The notes beneath the pieces are model-generated. The model ran no database searches and was not told where the DNA came from. It was given only the letters and a program-made list of their open reading frames with translations. 64,000 nt of DNA from Hyphomicrobiales bacterium (GTDB lineage Bacteria > Pseudomonadota > Alphaproteobacteria > Rhizobiales > Rhizobiaceae), in contig UBNV01000006.1 of assembly GCA_900466945.1 (NCBI GenBank), positions 186,001 through 250,000 of the forward strand, given 5' to 3'. Positions 3,386 to 40,544 of the stretch are shown in pieces. Made by a program: the position numbers and the translations under genes. Each line of letters opens with the position of its first letter. Positions within the stretch are counted from its first letter, which is position 1.

Positions 3386-3817
3386 ATGATCACACAGAAA
3401 GCCAAATATGCGCTGAGGGCGCTGACGCTTCTCGCCCGCGCCGAGCCGGGTGAGCCGATCCAGATTCCCGACATTGCCGATCGCCAGAAGATCCCGAAGA
3501 AATTCCTCGAACAGATCATGCTCGACCTGAAACGCGGCGGCATGGTCGAAAGTCGCCGGGGTAAACAGGGCGGCTACCTGCTGCTCAGACCGGCAAGCGA
3601 CATCACCTATGGCGAGGTTTTGCGACTGATCGACGGCCCGGTGGCACCCTTGCCCTGTCTGTCGCTCACGGCCTATCGCCGCTGCGAGGATTGCGACGGC
3701 GAGACGGAGTGCGAGATCCGCCGCGTCTTTGCGCGTGTCGCCGATGAGACGCGCGCTGTGCTTCTCTCGACCAGCCTGGCAGATGCGGCCACTGGCACGG
3801 GTGAAAGCACCCACTGA
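3386..3817 (+). CDS. Rrf2-family transcriptional regulator with a cysteine cluster
   Basis: 143-residue Rrf2 winged-helix regulator. The N-terminal HTH (res. ~1-75) contains IPKKFLEQIMLDLKRGG and the wing RRGKQGGY typical of the family. Four cysteines (C91, C100, C103, C109) sit where Rrf2 proteins such as IscR and NsrR hold an Fe-S cluster, though spaced differently. Divergent transcription from cysHDN suggests control of cysteine or sulfate assimilation, or Fe-S/redox sensing; that is inference from context. I saw no clear operator in the 218-bp divergent region. It converges on the tandem array behind the bidirectional-looking terminator at 3857-3888. Confidence 0.9.
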   Translation: MITQKAKYALRALTLLARAEPGEPIQIPDIADRQKIPKKFLEQIMLDLKRGGMVESRRGKQGGYLLLRPASDITYGEVLRLIDGPVAPLPCLSLTAYRRCEDCDGETECEIRRVFARVADETRAVLLSTSLADAATGTGESTH

Positions 3818-3856: not shown

Positions 3857-3888
3857 AAAAAGGCCCCGGGGCCGAAGCCCCGAGGCCC
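3857..3888 (-). terminator. Rho-independent terminator closing the tandem array
   Basis: Read on the minus strand, a GC-rich stem with arms GGCCTCGGGGC and GCCCCGGGGCC (one wobble) encloses a TTCG tetraloop and is followed by TTTTTGCGTTTTT. It lies 17 bp after the stop of the last array gene. It is the only T-tailed hairpin I can find in the array, so the five genes may share one transcript end. A shorter A-run on the other side could also help end the Rrf2 transcript. Confidence 0.9.
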
Positions 3889-3904
3889 ACCACGCACCCT
3901 TGGA

Positions 3905-4153
3905 TTAGGAGGCGTTGGAAACCGTGCGGTTGACGAGGGTCACCGACTTGTCGGCATTGACCTTGTAGATCTCGCGAACATCGCGGCCGTCACCGTTGGC
4001 AAAGGTGTGGAAGAAGGTCGAACCGGCCGGTGCCTTTTCCAGCTGAACATTGGCGTTGTCATAGGTGATCGAGCCCGGGATCGGCTGGACGGATGCGAAA
4101 GCGGCCGAGCCGGCTGCGAGGGTGATGAGGGCTGCAGAGAGAATGGTCTTCAT
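3905..4153 (-). CDS. Small exported protein, tandem copy 1 (last in transcription order)
   Basis: 82 residues, family not recognised. A Sec signal peptide (MKTILSAALITLAAGSAAFA) leaves a mature chain of about 62 residues opening with VQPIPGSITYD and containing APAGSTFFHTF, the charged GDGRDVREIYKVNADKSV and a C-terminal NRTVSN. No cysteine, and no methionine in the mature part. AAAGGAA precedes the ATG. Relative to its sisters it carries T11, S21, A52 and I62, so it pairs with copy 2 at two sites and with copy 3 at the other two. Likely periplasmic or secreted; no function assigned. Confidence 0.85.
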   Translation of the reverse strand: MKTILSAALITLAAGSAAFASVQPIPGSITYDNANVQLEKAPAGSTFFHTFANGDGRDVREIYKVNADKSVTLVNRTVSNAS

Positions 4154-4179
4154 GATCGTGTTCCTTTGTGCGTTGGGTT

Positions 4180-4222
4180 GGCGGCGGCTCAGTGTCAGGG
4201 GGGAGGGGCCGAGCCAGCCGCC
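4180..4222 (-). promoter_or_regulatory. Intergenic hairpin between copies 2 and 1
   Basis: GGCGGC plus GGCTC (4180-4190) pairs with GAGCC-A-GCCGCC (4211-4222): 11 bp with a one-base bulge around a 20-nt purine-rich loop. Its base is 26 nt before the copy 1 start. No T-run follows, so it is not a standard terminator; an mRNA processing, stability or translation element is more likely. Confidence 0.6.
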
Positions 4223-4270
4223 GGGGTCTTGTTTGCGTCTTGGGAGGCGCGTTCGTTCAGGCGCTTCGTA

Positions 4271-4519
4271 TTAAGAAGCGTTCGAGACAGTGCGGTTAAC
4301 CAGGGTCACCGACTTGTCGGCATTGACCTTGTAGATCTCGCGAACGTCGCGGCCGTCACCATTGGAGAACGTGTGGAAGAAGGTCGAACCGGCAGGTGCC
4401 TTTTCCAGCTGAACATTGGCGTTGTCATAGGTGATCGAGCCCGGGATCGGCTGGACGGCGGCGAAAGCGGCCGAACCGGCTGCGAGGGTGATGAGGGCTG
4501 CAGAGATGATGGTCTTCAT
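4271..4519 (-). CDS. Small exported protein, tandem copy 2
   Basis: 82 residues and nearly identical to copy 1: same signal peptide and same VQPIPGSITYD, APAGSTFFHTF and IYKVNADKSV blocks. Diagnostic residues are I5, T11, A21, S52 and I62. The mature part has neither Cys nor Met. It is offset by exactly 722 bp from copy 4 at both start and stop, indicating duplication of a two-gene unit. Exported, function unknown. Confidence 0.85.
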   Translation of the reverse strand: MKTIISAALITLAAGSAAFAAVQPIPGSITYDNANVQLEKAPAGSTFFHTFSNGDGRDVREIYKVNADKSVTLVNRTVSNAS

Positions 4520-4549
4520 GGTGATATTCCTTTGTGTAGCGTTTGGGTT

Positions 4550-4598
4550 GGCGGCGACCCGGTTTGGGGCGGGGGAGAGGGGAACCGGGCCGGCCGCC
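4550..4598 (-). promoter_or_regulatory. Intergenic hairpin between copies 3 and 2
   Basis: Same position as the other array hairpins (base 30 nt before the copy 2 start). The outer stem GGCGGC (4550-4555)/GCCGCC (4593-4598) is kept, but the inner stem is CCCGGTT (4558-4564)/AACCGGG (4583-4589) instead of GGCTC/GAGCC. Both strands of the inner helix changed together, which argues that the RNA fold is selected. Confidence 0.62.
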
Positions 4599-4626
4599 GA
4601 AGGGTGCGTCTTGGGAGGCGCGTTGA

Positions 4627-4875
4627 TTACGAAGCGTTGGAAACCGTGCGGTTGACGAGGGTCACCGACTTGTCGGCATTGACCTTGTAGACTTCGCGAA
4701 CGTCGCGGCCGTCACCGTTGGCAAACGTGTGGAAGAAGGTCGAACCGGCCGGAGCCTTTTCCAGCATGACGTTGGCGTTGTCATAGGTGATCGAGCCCGG
4801 GATCGGCTGAACGGAGGCGAAAGCGGCCGAACCGGCTGCGAGCGAGATCAGGGCGGCGGAGATGATGGTCTTCAT
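4627..4875 (-). CDS. Small exported protein, tandem copy 3
   Basis: 82 residues from the ATG at 4875, the start equivalent to the sister genes; the frame is open 30 codons further upstream but that stretch covers the intergenic hairpin and is not homologous to anything in the family. Diagnostic residues are S11, S21, M37, A52 and V62. M37 is the only methionine in any mature copy. Start and stop lie exactly 722 bp from those of copy 1. Confidence 0.84.
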   Translation of the reverse strand: MKTIISAALISLAAGSAAFASVQPIPGSITYDNANVMLEKAPAGSTFFHTFANGDGRDVREVYKVNADKSVTLVNRTVSNAS

Positions 4876-4903
4876 GGTCGTGTTCCTTTGTGCGTTGGGT
4901 GTG

Positions 4904-4942
4904 GCGGCGGCTCGGGGCGGTGGAGAGGGCCGAGCCTGCCGC
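4904..4942 (-). promoter_or_regulatory. Intergenic hairpin between copies 4 and 3
   Basis: GCGGC plus GGCTCGG (4904-4915) pairs with CCGAGCC-T-GCCGC (4930-4942), 12 bp with one bulge, base 28 nt before the copy 3 start. Third member of the hairpin family. Its inner helix is extended relative to the 4180-4222 hairpin. The region before copy 4 lacks this structure. Confidence 0.6.
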
Positions 4943-4992
4943 TGGAGGTCTTCTTGCGTCTTCAAGAGGCGCGTTAGTTCAGACGCTTCGGA

Positions 4993-5241
4993 TTAAGAAG
5001 CGTTGGAAACCGTGCGGTTGACGAGGGTCACCGACTTGTCGGCATTGACCTTGTAGACTTCGCGAACATCGCGGCCGTCACCGTTGGAGAAGGTGTGGAA
5101 GAAGGTCGAACCGGCAGGTGCCTTTTCCAGCTGAACATTGGCGTTGTCATAGGTGATCGAGCCCGGGATCGGCTGGACGGCGGCGAAAGCGGCCGAACCG
5201 GCTGCGAGAGAGATGAGGGCTGCAGAGATGATGGTCTTCAT
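4993..5241 (-). CDS. Small exported protein, tandem copy 4
   Basis: 82 residues; diagnostic residues S11, A21, S52 and V62. It therefore shares A21/S52 with copy 2 and S11/V62 with copy 3, which produces the mosaic pattern of the array. Signal peptide cleavage is expected after AFA. The leader differs from the other copies (TTTCCTTATCTTGG, no GC hairpin), consistent with copy 4 being the upstream edge of the amplified block. Function unknown. Confidence 0.85.
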   Translation of the reverse strand: MKTIISAALISLAAGSAAFAAVQPIPGSITYDNANVQLEKAPAGSTFFHTFSNGDGRDVREVYKVNADKSVTLVNRTVSNAS

Positions 5242-5367
5242 GGTCTTGTTTCCTTATCTTGGATTGAGAGACACGATTTGTGTTCAGCTCAGGATTGTGG
5301 TTGTGGGTATGATCAGTCTGTATTCTCGGTCGTCAGTCCTGGTGGTCAGTCCCGGTCGTCTGGGCGT

Positions 5368-5619
5368 TCAGTCGCTGTTTGAGACGGAACGCGAGACGAT
5401 GGAGACGGACCGGTCTGCATTCACCTTGTAGATCTCGTGGACTTCAGAGCCGTTGAGATGGAAGGTGTGGAAGAAGTTCGAACCGGCCGGTGCCTGTTCG
5501 AGCCTTGGCTGCGCACCGCCATAGGTGATGGAGCCTGGGACGGGCTCTACCGCGAAAGCGGCGGATGTTCCGGCGATGCCGGCGAGAGTGGCGAGGAGTG
5601 CTGCTGCTAGGATCTTCAT
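5368..5619 (-). CDS. Small exported protein, diverged copy 5 (first in transcription order)
   Basis: 83 residues and clearly homologous: signal peptide ending SAAFA, then EPVPGSITYGG, APAGSNFFHTF, HEIYKVNADRSVS and SVSN. It differs from copies 1-4 at many positions and replaces the NGDGRDVRE segment by LNGSEVHE. It is probably the older member, with copies 1-4 arising by later amplification. No Cys and no internal Met. Two matching dyads and a long AT-richer region lie upstream, so a promoter for the whole array is likely here. Confidence 0.82.
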   Translation of the reverse strand: MKILAAALLATLAGIAGTSAAFAVEPVPGSITYGGAQPRLEQAPAGSNFFHTFHLNGSEVHEIYKVNADRSVSIVSRSVSNSD

Positions 5620-5645
5620 CGTCGTGTACCTTGGAAGCTTGTTCG

Positions 5646-5736
5646 ATCGAACTGTGCGGTTCGATGATGTAGATTTGGCGCAGAACGATGGGAATTACAA
5701 TACCCCATTGCGCACAATCGAACTGATTGGTTCGGT
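5646..5736. promoter_or_regulatory. Two matching dyads upstream of the array
   Basis: Site A is ATCGAAC-N6-GTTCGAT (5646-5652/5659-5665, perfect). Site B is ATCGAAC-N6-GTTCGGT (5717-5723/5730-5736, one mismatch). Both sit in a longer direct repeat that also matches in the spacer start (TG) and in the flank TTGATGTA/TCGATGATGTA. Centres are 71 bp apart, about seven helical turns. They look like paired operators for a dimeric regulator controlling the array, or a divergent gene. The regulator is unknown. Confidence 0.5.
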
Positions 5737-6152
5737 TGATGTACCCGGTATCAAGATTGGCACTTGAAATTCGGAGTGAGTTAAATCAACGGCTTAGTCT
5801 GTCTTTTTGCCGTCATTTAACTATGACATAGAACGATTATTTTTTATTTCTTTCACCCTTTTGTGACTGCTGCTTGAGGGCTTTCGGGGCTGGCGGAGGC
5901 TTTTCACTCGTGCTTGGACAGGCGACTGCGCCCGTCAACTGGCCCCGTCCCTGTACTCAGAAGCCTGCTTGCGATCCCGCCCAAGAGCCAGCCAAGACCC
6001 GCCTATGACTCCGCGATGCGGCATCCAGACTTTCTGCCGAAGCCGCTCTCCGCGGAAGCTTTCACCAAAACCACGCAGCTGGGCAGCATGTCTGTCGCGT
6101 CTGCGGTGGGGGCACGGGAAACGCTTTTGCGAACTGCCTTCCCTGCGTTGAC

Positions 6153-6177
6153 TAAGACGACTTGTGAGGTAGTCTTA
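6153..6177. promoter_or_regulatory. Dyad before the sulfate-binding protein gene
   Basis: TAAGACGAC (6153-6161) and GTAGTCTTA (6169-6177) form an inverted repeat with one mismatch around 7 bp, 31 bp before the start codon. Its place and symmetry suggest an operator overlapping the promoter or leader. It does not resemble the CGAAC-N6-GTTCG sites. Confidence 0.4.
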
Positions 6178-6207
6178 AATCGTTAACGCCAGAGAGGAGG
6201 CACAGAC

Positions 6208-7224
6208 ATGAAGTGCATTGGGAAAAATCTTGCGGCGTTTCTCGTCGGACTGAGCCTGTCCACTGGCCTCGTGCTGCCAGCGGGCGCCGCGGAGCTCCTG
6301 AACGTCTCCTATGATCCGACGCGCGAACTCTACGCCGAGTTCAACACCACCTTCACCGAACACTGGAAACAGGAGACGGGCGAGACGCTGACGATCAGCC
6401 AGTCGCATGGCGGATCCGGCCGCCAGGCCCGCGCCGTGATGGAAGGCCTCGAGGCCGATGTCGTCACACTCGCCCTGCAGAGCGACATCGACATCATCTC
6501 CGAGCGGGCAAAGCTGATCGCGCCTGACTGGCGCACGCGCCTGCCCAACAACTCGTCCCCCTATACCTCGACCATCGTCTTCCTGGTGCGCAAGGGCAAT
6601 CCGAAGGGCATCCAGGATTGGGGCGATCTGGTGAAGGGCGACGTGCAGATCGTCACGCCCAATCCGAAGACCTCGGGCGGTGCGCGCTGGAACTATCTCG
6701 CCGCCTGGGCCTGGGCCAACAAGGAATTCGGCGGCGACCAGCAGAAGATCCGCGATTACATCGCTGAGATCTACCGCCGCGCGCCTGTGCTGGATACCGG
6801 CGCCCGCGGCTCCCTTACGAGCTTTGCCCAGCGCGAAATCGGCGACGTGCTGATTTCCTGGGAAAACGAGGCCTATCTCGCCGGCAAGGAATTCGGCGCC
6901 GACCAGTTCGACATCGTCACTCCCTCGCTGTCGATCCTCGCCGAACCGCCGGTCGCTGTCGTCGACGTCAATGTCGACAAGAAGGGCACCCGCAAACAGG
7001 CGGAAGCCTATCTGAACTACCTCTATTCGGCAGAAGGCCAGGCGCTAGCCGCCAAGCACTTCTATCGCCCCTCGCGTCCGGACCTCGTGCCCGCAGGCTC
7101 CGGCCCGGAACTGCCCAAGCTCGATCTCATCACCATCGACGATCCGCTCTTTGGCGGCTGGGCAAAGGCACAGCCGGAGCATTTCGGCGAAGGCGGCGTC
7201 TTCGACCAGATCTACCGCCCCTGA
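6208..7224 (+). CDS. Sulfate ABC transporter periplasmic substrate-binding protein
   Basis: 338 residues with a Sec signal ([12 protein letters not shown]). It matches the Sbp/CysP family throughout: [15 protein letters not shown] near the mature N-terminus, [12 protein letters not shown] (~70-81), [25 protein letters not shown] (~152-164) and [13 protein letters not shown]. It binds sulfate or thiosulfate in the periplasm for a CysTWA importer. No permease or ATPase gene adjoins it, so it must work with components elsewhere. GAGGAGG precedes the ATG. Its position near cysHDN and a SulP permease suggests shared sulfur-limitation control. Whether it is Sbp or CysP cannot be settled here. Confidence 0.92.
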
Positions 7225-7283: not shown

Positions 7284-7370
7284 TAGATGAAGCGAAGCGG
7301 CGGCCCCTTGCTCGCCATCCGTCGCCCGTCGTTGCGCCGCAGCACATTTTCCGCTAGAAAAATCATCCGC

Positions 7371-7470
7371 ATGGACCCGGTGCAAATCCGGGTGGCTCTT
7401 CTGGCCGCCGATCCGCCAGACAACACAGCAACGCAACCATCTTATTTTCCTGGCCCGAGACCCTCTCGGA
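7371..7470 (+). ncRNA. Structured leader RNA before the SulP permease (candidate cis-regulator)
   Basis: Three consecutive stems can be drawn in the 130 nt before the start: ACCCGG/CCGGGT (7375-7380/7388-7393) with loop TGCAAAT; TCTGGC/GCCAGA (7400-7405/7415-7420) enclosing a CCGCC that could pair with the GGTGG at 7391-7395; and CCGAGA/TCTCGG (7455-7460/7464-7469) with loop CCC. From memory, an orphan motif called sul1 has been reported upstream of SulP-type genes in Alphaproteobacteria; I cannot verify that this is a member. The start codon has only a weak ribosome site (GTGAAAAA), so leader control of translation is plausible. Confidence 0.5.
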
Positions 7471-7498: not shown

Positions 7499-8986
7499 AT
7501 GCAAAGCCTTATCAATTACCGCCGCGAGTGGTTCTCCAACATCCGTGGCGACATCCTCTCGGGCATCGTCGTGGCACTCGCCCTCATCCCCGAGGCCATC
7601 GGCTTTTCCGTCATCGCTGGAGTCGATCCCAAGGTCGGCCTTTACGCCTCCTTCGCCATCGCCTGCGTCGCCGCCTTTGTCGGCGGTCGCCCCGGCATGA
7701 TCTCGGCAGCGACGGCTGCCACCGCCGTGATCATGGTGACGCTGGTCAAGGAACACGGCCTACAATACCTCTTCGCCGCCACGATCCTAATGGGCCTCAT
7801 CCAGATCCTTGCCGGCTTCCTGAAGCTTGGCCGCGTCATGCGCTTCGTCTCCCGCTCAGTCATCACGGGCTTCGTCAACGCGCTCGCCATCCTCATCTTC
7901 ATGGCGCAGTTGCCCGAACTCATCGGCGTGCCGGGGCTCACCTATGCCATGATCGCCGGTGGCCTTGGGATCATCTACCTCTTCCCCTATGTGACAAAGG
8001 CCATCCCGTCGCCGCTCGTCGCCATCGCCGTGCTCACCACGCTTGCCTGGTGGACGGGCATGGACCTGCGCACCGTCGGTGACCTCGGCGAATTGCCCTC
8101 GACACTGCCCGTCTTCCTGCTGCCGGATGTGCCGCTCACGCTTGAGACGCTGCAGATCATCCTGCCCTACTCGATCACGCTCGCCGCCGTCGGCCTGCTG
8201 GAATCGCTGCTGACCGCCCAGATCGTCGACGACATGACGGATACGCCGAGCAACAAGAGCCAGGAATGCATTGGCCAGGGCACGGGCAACATCGCCTCCG
8301 CCCTGATCGGCGGCATGGGCGGCTGCGCCATGATCGGCCAGTCTGTCATCAACGTCACCTCGGGTGGCCGGGGGCGCCTGTCGGCCTTCGTCGCCGGCGC
8401 CTTCCTGCTCTTCCTCATCGTGGTGCTCGATGATCTCGTCCGCATCATCCCGATGGCAGCCCTCGTTGCCGTCATGATCATGGTCTCGATCGGCACCTTC
8501 TCCTGGCGCTCGATCCTGGATGTCAGGCGCAATCCCTGGCAGTCCTCCGTCGTCATGCTGGCAACCGTCGTCACGGTCGTGGCCACCCATGACCTCGCCA
8601 AGGGCGTCATCGTGGGCGTGCTCCTCTCCGGCATATTCTTCGCCGGCAAGGTGGCAAAACTCTTTCGCGTCACCCGCCATGCCGAGCACGCATCCGGCAC
8701 CGTCACCTACCGCGTCACCGGCCAGATCTTCTTCGCTTCGGCCGAGAGCTTCATCCACGCCTTCGACTTCTCGGATACAGCGAACAAGGTGGTCATCGAC
8801 GTCACCGCCGCCCATATCTGGGACATCACCGCCGTCGGCGCGCTGGACAAGATCGTGTTGAAATACCGCAAGGCCGGCATCGAGGTCGAAGTTCTCGGCT
8901 TCAACGCGGCGAGCGCCGACATGGTCGACCGCTTCGCCTTGCACGACAAGGACGAGCGGCTCGCAGCCAGCGCTGCCTTGCACTGA
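7499..8986 (+). CDS. SulP-family inorganic anion transporter with STAS domain
   Basis: 495 residues. The N-terminal ~385 residues are a multi-pass SLC26/SulP core, with the signature region [17 protein letters not shown] (~21-37), then [28 protein letters not shown]. The last ~100 residues form a cytosolic STAS domain ([17 protein letters not shown] ... [19 protein letters not shown]). Members move sulfate or bicarbonate, usually with H+ or Na+. Placement near sulfate-assimilation genes favours sulfate, but many short SulP proteins carry bicarbonate, so the substrate is not settled. Transcribed after a structured leader and separated from the binding protein by a terminator. Confidence 0.9.
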
Positions 8987-40241: not shown

Positions 40242-40544
40242 GCCGGTCTCCCTTGAATGGTGCGCCGGAGGCTATCCCGCGTCAGGCGCCCAGAAAAGCC
40301 GTTCATGCTGATGTGGTCGATGAAATTTCCTGATGATTGCCGACGATTGACAGCAGTCGCATGTCGCGCGTATTTCTGCCGCTCCAGGGTCTGCAGTTCA
40401 CCCAGGCGTCACCGCCCCGATGAGGGGAGCTAAACCTGCCTTTCTCTTGTCGACGTCAGCTCGTTTTCCCGTGCCCCGTCGGAAGTCGGTGACCACCGGC
40501 CTTGTTGGTCGCTTGCGCGACCGGGCACGACCTGGAGACATGAG
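40242..40544. other. 303-bp region between the GST and DUF2087 genes
   Basis: Divergent control region. A perfect 6-bp hairpin GGTCGC-TTGC-GCGACC lies at 40507-40522, 22 bp before the DUF2087 start. No gene supported. Confidence 0.45.

Follow-up and report, generated by a model that had tools for sequence, protein, structure and literature searches.

A twinned tandem array of genes for small, putatively exported proteins in Rhizobiaceae, read as a regulated dosage operon

Near-identical multicopy genes for proteins are rarely kept by bacteria. Unlinked operons that are kept alike, such as those for rRNA, EF-Tu and ammonia monooxygenase, usually make a product that the cell requires in large amounts, and tufA/tufB and the rRNA operons are duplicated bacterial genes that evolve concertedly. 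For the Nitrosomonadales, PMC6053082 reports 26 concertedly evolving genes, including amo and hao genes. The locus described here resembles these systems in that, for most of the promoters compared, paralogues at separate loci are more alike within a genome than the same locus is across species. It differs from them in that the unit is a tandem array with its promoter and operators, in that the product is a small, putatively exported protein, and in that the likeness breaks down among the closest relatives.

Two further groups invite comparison. The enterobacterial DUF1471 proteins (BhsA, McbA), which are stress-induced and periplasmic, are likewise small exported proteins with several paralogues, and bhsA is under a TetR-family repressor. 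The window proteins have no match to this family, however, and one relative from genus g82 gave a weak hit to McbA (E 0.09); the comparison is one of analogy only. With operons controlled by TetR-family operators the array shares paired palindromes at its promoter and an apparently ancestral locus that adjoins a TetR gene, but the repeat in front of that gene differs from the array palindromes and the regulator binding at the array is putative.

The array and its protein

The window, a stretch of 64,000 nucleotides (contig UBNV01000006.1, positions 186,001 to 250,000), comes from a soil bacterium related to Rhizobium, whose genome (G000) is assembled in 40 contigs. Its minus strand carries, at 3905-5619, five open reading frames of 82-83 amino acids, each with a signal peptide. 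Transcription would run from copy 5 (5368-5619), the first gene of the operon, of diverged type and with average codon adaptation, through the main copies 4 (4993-5241), 3 (4627-4875) and 2 (4271-4519) to copy 1 (3905-4153), also a main copy and the last gene. In protein sequence, copies 1, 2 and 3 are 94%, 98% and 96% identical to copy 4, and copy 5 is 56% identical. The DNA of copies 1-4 is 90.2-95.1% identical, with 31 variable sites among the four. As read off the sequence, the signal peptide of copies 1-4 ends in Ala-Phe-Ala and their start is preceded by a Shine-Dalgarno-like AAGGA, which is AAGG in copy 5. An earlier sequence-only reading had described just such an array, four near-identical copies and a diverged fifth, and all five frames were recovered as it gave them. 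The array is not a product of chance, since four 290-nt repeats match the reference at 84-93% and the tandem layout recurs in many relatives.

A search of the contigs of G000 returned 14 family members with E-values of at most 3.6e-14. Five are those of the window, another five open contig C18, C30 carries two, and C16 and C21 have one each; a pair of weaker matches (E 0.43 and 0.53) was left out of the count. In samples of other genomes, 57 of 297 of the bacterial family and 42 of 60 of the genus gave a match, G000 being counted in both. Tandem arrays of shorter, diverged relatives with a KAPAGS...YRV..DGSL motif occur in genus g82 of the Rhizobiaceae (L095-L099), and G161 has them at more than one place. 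Outside arrays, several members that stand alone or in pairs lie near genes for two-component or AraC-type regulators, as annotated for L085 and as judged by eye from the reading frames for L010, L011, L012 and L101.

The sequence-only reading had called the proteins unknown and exported. No known family was found for them, and export is deduced from the signal peptide. The profile searches it had proposed gave nothing over cut-off in Pfam, NCBIfam or PHROGs. In Pfam, the best E-value was 0.0096 for the five window copies, under the gathering cut-off, and 0.019 for 82 aligned members, none of which exceeded it. In NCBIfam, no family member scanned had a match over cut-off, and the HPE1-like model NF041110 scored 13.4 bits over residues 1-35 of copy 1, against a curated cut-off of 45 bits; in PHROGs, the three members scanned had none. 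Sequence searches against the PDB yielded no convincing relative, the best matches being HalluTIM2-2 (E 0.0013, with no stretch passing alone) and, in a second search, mL54 (E 0.11). An AlphaFold model from 82 sequences (pLDDT 74, pTM 0.55) is a three-stranded β-meander with strands at residues 46-52, 58-65 and 70-78, for which no convincing structural match was obtained; the candidates from Foldseek and VIA-align, among them laterosporulin, SH2, cystatin and BamE, were weak matches only and were set aside. Conserved positions include G27, S28, T30, P42, G44, S45, G56, E61, Y63 and R76. Among the open-licence papers listed, we found no description of the family or the array. A guess that the S. 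meliloti relative is SMb21440 (see PMC8343143) was dropped, as no tie to the sequence could be made.

The codon usage of the main copies resembles that of highly expressed genes. The eight main copies of the window array and the C18 array have codon adaptation indices of 0.70-0.83, compared with a mean of 0.567 for 56 background reading frames of the window, among which they rank from the 94.6th to the 100th percentile; the reference set for these values consisted of 24 reading frames chosen by GC3 from one ribosomal-protein stretch, some of which look misframed or not ribosomal. Five of the eight also exceed the 95th percentile (0.752) of random 82-codon segments, although the copies are mutually dependent. 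The two first genes score 0.53 and 0.51. Of the members elsewhere in the genome, the one on C16 has an index of 0.78, the two on C30 have 0.84 and 0.67, and the one on C21 has 0.47. A dN/dS comparison, likewise proposed in the sequence-only reading, points to purifying selection: over the 28 pairs of main copies, mean dN is 0.019 and mean dS 0.275, a ratio of means of about 0.07. Constraint looks weaker when the first gene of one array is set against that of the other (dN 0.022, dS 0.065).

Promoter region, spacers and a candidate repressor

The whole cassette of promoter region, five genes and terminator (3857-5914, minus strand) is matched at 92% DNA identity by the five-gene array of C18 (C18:1-2061). 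Because the match spans 3857-5914, it includes the promoter region and the terminator hairpin as well as the genes. Contig C18 begins at the array, so that the far end of the twin lies outside it.

Upstream of copy 5, sequence comparison delimits a leader and promoter region (5620-5914, minus strand) common to the arrays at both loci and across species. Its conserved part, of about 250 bp, contains two operator-like palindromes of the type GAACC-N5-GTTCGA, a proximal one at 5646-5663 (core GAACCGCACAGTTC) and, 71 bp from it, a distal one at 5717-5734 (core GAACCAATCAGTTC), both given on the minus strand. Among 20 loci picked for readable promoters, the spacing is 71 bp in 19 and 72 bp in the remaining one. 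The pair extends to L078, L079 and L072, which are more distant records. Outside this count, it is visible by eye in L046, L054, L056 and L075, the palindrome is degenerate or single in L076, L077 and L081, and no pair was seen by eye at the ilvC locus of L016, L022 and L025. The exact pattern had six hits in G000, corresponding to four sites, all of them before the two arrays, and a reversed-pattern control had one. A scan for the σ70 consensus found no promoter; motifs of the ECF-sigma type were scattered upstream of family members, with none in the array promoters among the matches listed. The members on C16 and C30 and in L073 have another upstream motif, ACTAATACC..CGTT / AAGTTCGATA, as judged by eye.

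The spacers between the main copies (4154-4270, 4520-4626 and 4876-4992, minus strand) each form a stable hairpin according to folding and spacer alignment, with folding z-scores of −1.9, −2.4 and −2.4; the spacer that follows the first gene has +0.9. Across 38 different spacers, the cells pair at the hairpin in 91.9% of cases, as against 28.3-53.1% when slid; shuffling the 3' letters hardly lowers the pairing, which is then still 91.2%. Double changes occur in only two pairs, and the covariation score was attained in 5 of 500 shuffles. After copy 1, a hairpin with a T tract resembling an intrinsic terminator (3861-3888, minus strand) recurs at both loci of each of the seven genomes discussed below. 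Codon usage, hairpins and low dN/dS together fit a high output of one nearly uniform product. An Rfam scan found no family at the array. Elsewhere in the window it placed a sul1 RNA motif (RF03058, 78.1 bits) at 7370-7425, just upstream of a gene for a SulP-type transporter (7499-8986), and a COG3860 RNA motif (RF02940, 71.9 bits) at 40387-40441.

The C18 array adjoins a TetR-family gene and ilvC, which encodes ketol-acid reductoisomerase. This TetR has an AefR-like C-terminal domain and is close to PDB entry 3c2b, named there only as a TetR-family regulator. Paired conserved palindromes, as found at the array promoter, are a feature expected of a TetR-regulated operon, and a repressor switch at this promoter is plausible. 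A 19-bp repeat precedes the TetR gene itself (C18:2170-2188, L094); its 12-base core was not found in the open-licence literature. Since this repeat and the most symmetrical of the array palindromes both fit the common form G(A/T)ACCG-NN-CGGT(A/T)C, we consider the TetR a fair candidate for the regulator of the array. The repeat is identical, and usually present once, in 102 of the 297 genomes sampled from the family, whereas the strict form of the distal array operator occurs in 2 of 297; the TetR may therefore regulate only itself or ilvC.

The two loci and their likeness within genomes

In the window, the array lies between two genes on the plus strand, assigned by domain match to an Rrf2-family regulator (3386-3817) and to the sulfate-binding protein Sbp (6208-7224). 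In relatives, wherever the flanks are readable, arrays are found either beside TetR-ilvC or between Rrf2/CysH and Sbp/SulP, with other members of the family elsewhere. The TetR-ilvC position is common to Agrobacterium sp. a22-2, Rhizobium sp. RU36D, Ciceribacter sp. L1K22 and Peteryoungia ipomoeae, and it is also occupied in genus g62 (L016, four genes) and, by single genes, in genus g98 (L022, L025). This locus thus looks ancestral. In P. ipomoeae (G320), G327 and G324, the Rrf2 and Sbp genes are about 240-270 bp apart; this gap is too small for an array, and the copy in the window is therefore most readily explained by the entire operon having been inserted between the two genes. The Sbp of G348 is 99% identical, and the contig of that genome ends at the array start, with the insertion site beyond it. 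In seven genomes that carry both loci, the flanking genes agree from species to species, L166 being judged on CysH and Rrf2 only. Upstream of the Sbp gene, at 6150-6190, the window has the stretch gttgactaagacgacttgt..ggtagtctt, also present in P. ipomoeae, which may hold the operator of the Rrf2-family regulator.

For seven genomes we compared the promoters of both loci. The two promoters of one genome are 91.5% identical in G000, 99.2% in R. rosettiformans W3, 98.1% in the metagenome-assembled genome (MAG) OY288189, 93.1% in P. aggregata, 100% in G334, 96.9% in G325 and 95.4% in G304, compared with a highest identity between species of 90.3%. Between species, the means for the same locus (78.6%) and for different loci (78.7%) are equal. 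The nearest promoter was the own-genome partner in all 14 cases, as was the nearest first gene in 13 of 14 and the nearest second gene in 10 of 14; with a control segment taken 600-400 bp upstream, the partner was nearest in none of the 14 cases. AOL15, RU33A and others were left out, as one promoter was missing from the sequence compared.

With the closer relatives TH135 (L046 with L173) and G348 added, the eight genomes with both loci have 16 promoters, and the own partner was nearest for 12 of these, the reason being that each locus has stayed recognisably similar between very close relatives. The promoters of TH135 are 97.7 and 96.9% identical to those of the same locus in the MAG, as against 94.6% to each other, and those of G000 are 96.9 and 92.3% identical to the cys promoter of G348, as against 91.5% to each other. 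Given these exceptions, homogenisation would be intermittent rather than constant. The pattern fits two standing loci that drift apart and are made alike again at intervals; intermittent conversion between the twins is likely, and we consider it likely, too, that gene conversion is the cause of the within-genome likeness.

Within the arrays, a Sawyer-type run test by sum of squares gave p=0.0005 for window copies 1-4, 0.001 for the eight main copies and 0.023 for C18 alone; by longest run, the values were 0.034, 0.086 and 0.145. The mosaic distribution of residues 11, 21, 52 and 62, from which gene conversion within the array had originally been proposed, is as described, and the run tests, suggested at the time, support the proposal, which the comparison of loci extends to likeness between them. 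The spacings on which a duplicated two-gene unit had been proposed are also correct: copies 1 and 3 and copies 2 and 4 are each offset by 722 bp, and the gaps before copies 1, 2 and 3 are 117, 107 and 117 bp, to which we add 126 bp before copy 4. A strict gene-pair unit is nevertheless only partly supported. In its favour, the spacers between copies 1 and 2 and between 3 and 4 are 79.0% identical (gaps counted), compared with 56.7 and 54.3% to the spacer between 2 and 3, and copies 2 and 4 are the closest pair in DNA sequence (95.1%). Against it, copies 1 and 3 are less alike (91.5%) than the pairs 1-4 (94.3%), 3-4 (93.1%) and 1-2 (92.7%). Sites shared two against two fall into three incompatible splits, four sites for 1+3/2+4, three for 1+2/3+4 and two for 1+4/2+3. 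The spacers of the twin measure 117/120/107 bp, and those of other arrays show no consistent alternation, although L164 alternates (108/105/108).

Explanations considered and their meaning

Our preferred reading, to which we give a probability of about 60%, is that the array would be a complete dosage operon, under regulation and of high output, that supplies a single uniform exported protein and that was amplified in tandem, duplicated as a whole and partly homogenised. A dosage operon with a twin is well supported by the comparisons above: tandem amplification, a second operon copy on C18 and purifying selection all emerge from them, and the two copies, promoter and operators included, are more alike within the genome than to most other species. 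By the proposed mechanism, a repressor, most likely the TetR of the ancestral locus, would bind the two palindromes and keep the promoter shut; when a signal arrives, one transcript with five ribosome-binding sites would be made and protected or processed at the intercistronic hairpins. It would yield much of a nearly uniform protein, exported by Sec and cleaved after Ala-x-Ala to a mature product of about 62 residues. Such a protein probably acts stoichiometrically in the periplasm, in the envelope or outside the cell, as a coat, matrix or binding protein, and not as an enzyme.

The likeness of the two loci within a genome could also arise without conversion, if the cassette had been copied into one and the same cys site several times over, each time independently. 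The likeness spans about one transcription unit, as such copying would have it, and fades at the T tract of the terminator or within some 25 bp past it in the six genomes with both ends read (by eye); past the terminator, also by eye, the loci of some pairs differ at once, those of the MAG after about 25 bp. Yet the array sits between the same two genes wherever both flanks are in the sequence examined, a likeness by locus persists between TH135 and the MAG and, for the cys locus, between G000 and G348, as expected of standing copies, and the arrays contain mosaics within them, all of which makes repeated insertion rather unlikely. That the array is an assembly artefact or a collapsed repeat, one of the outcomes that the sequence-only reading named as refuting it, we regard as extremely improbable. 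Draft contigs of this clade (L172, L173 and others) do often end within or at arrays, and copy numbers from drafts may therefore be too low, but the four main copies of the window differ at their 31 variable sites, and both arrays are present in assemblies that consist of just one to five contigs, with 6+5 genes in G334, 5+5 in the MAG OY288189 and in G304 and 5+4 in G325, so that an artefact is unlikely.

The flanking genes raise the question of a sulfate-assimilation locus (CysH, Rrf2, Sbp, SulP), in which sulfur-poor exported proteins would be made under sulfur limitation. The position of the array between the Rrf2 and Sbp genes would suit this role, as would the fact that 110 of 145 distinct family proteins contain neither cysteine nor methionine past residue 20; in genus g4, too, a distant member that occurs singly has genes for Rrf2 and Sbp as neighbours. 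However, one window copy carries a methionine in its mature chain, and P. ipomoeae has an ilvC array but none between Rrf2 and Sbp. Nor is the promoter particular to sulfur loci: it is common to the TetR-ilvC locus, and the exact palindrome occurs before the two arrays only. As the ilvC-side twin has the same promoter, a role in sulfur metabolism is quite improbable and the neighbouring sulfur genes are probably incidental. Paralogues and mosaics would be expected, too, of a diversifying array that maintains a repertoire of variants, such as bacteriocins, effectors or antigens; the strong constraint on the main copies, the single distinct main protein encoded by three genes in the ilvC array of P. 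aggregata and the lack of PHROGs matches for the three members scanned speak against it and leave it little likelihood.

Beyond the dosage operon itself, we tentatively raise the possibility, which we hold at well under even odds, of an undescribed class of bulk exported small β-proteins in the Rhizobiaceae. Its marks would be repeated tandem amplification, a switch with paired operators to which the TetR on the ilvC side is linked, and near-uniformity maintained by conversion of twin operons as in rRNA and EF-Tu. The product could be a new subunit of an extracellular matrix or a coat, or else scavenge a ligand stoichiometrically. Species that have both loci, close and distant, offer a natural system for timing the conversion of whole operons, promoters included. 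Where, as here, an exported protein that has no recognised relative bears such a signature, this points to a component of the envelope or the extracellular space that is major in this group and yet unstudied.
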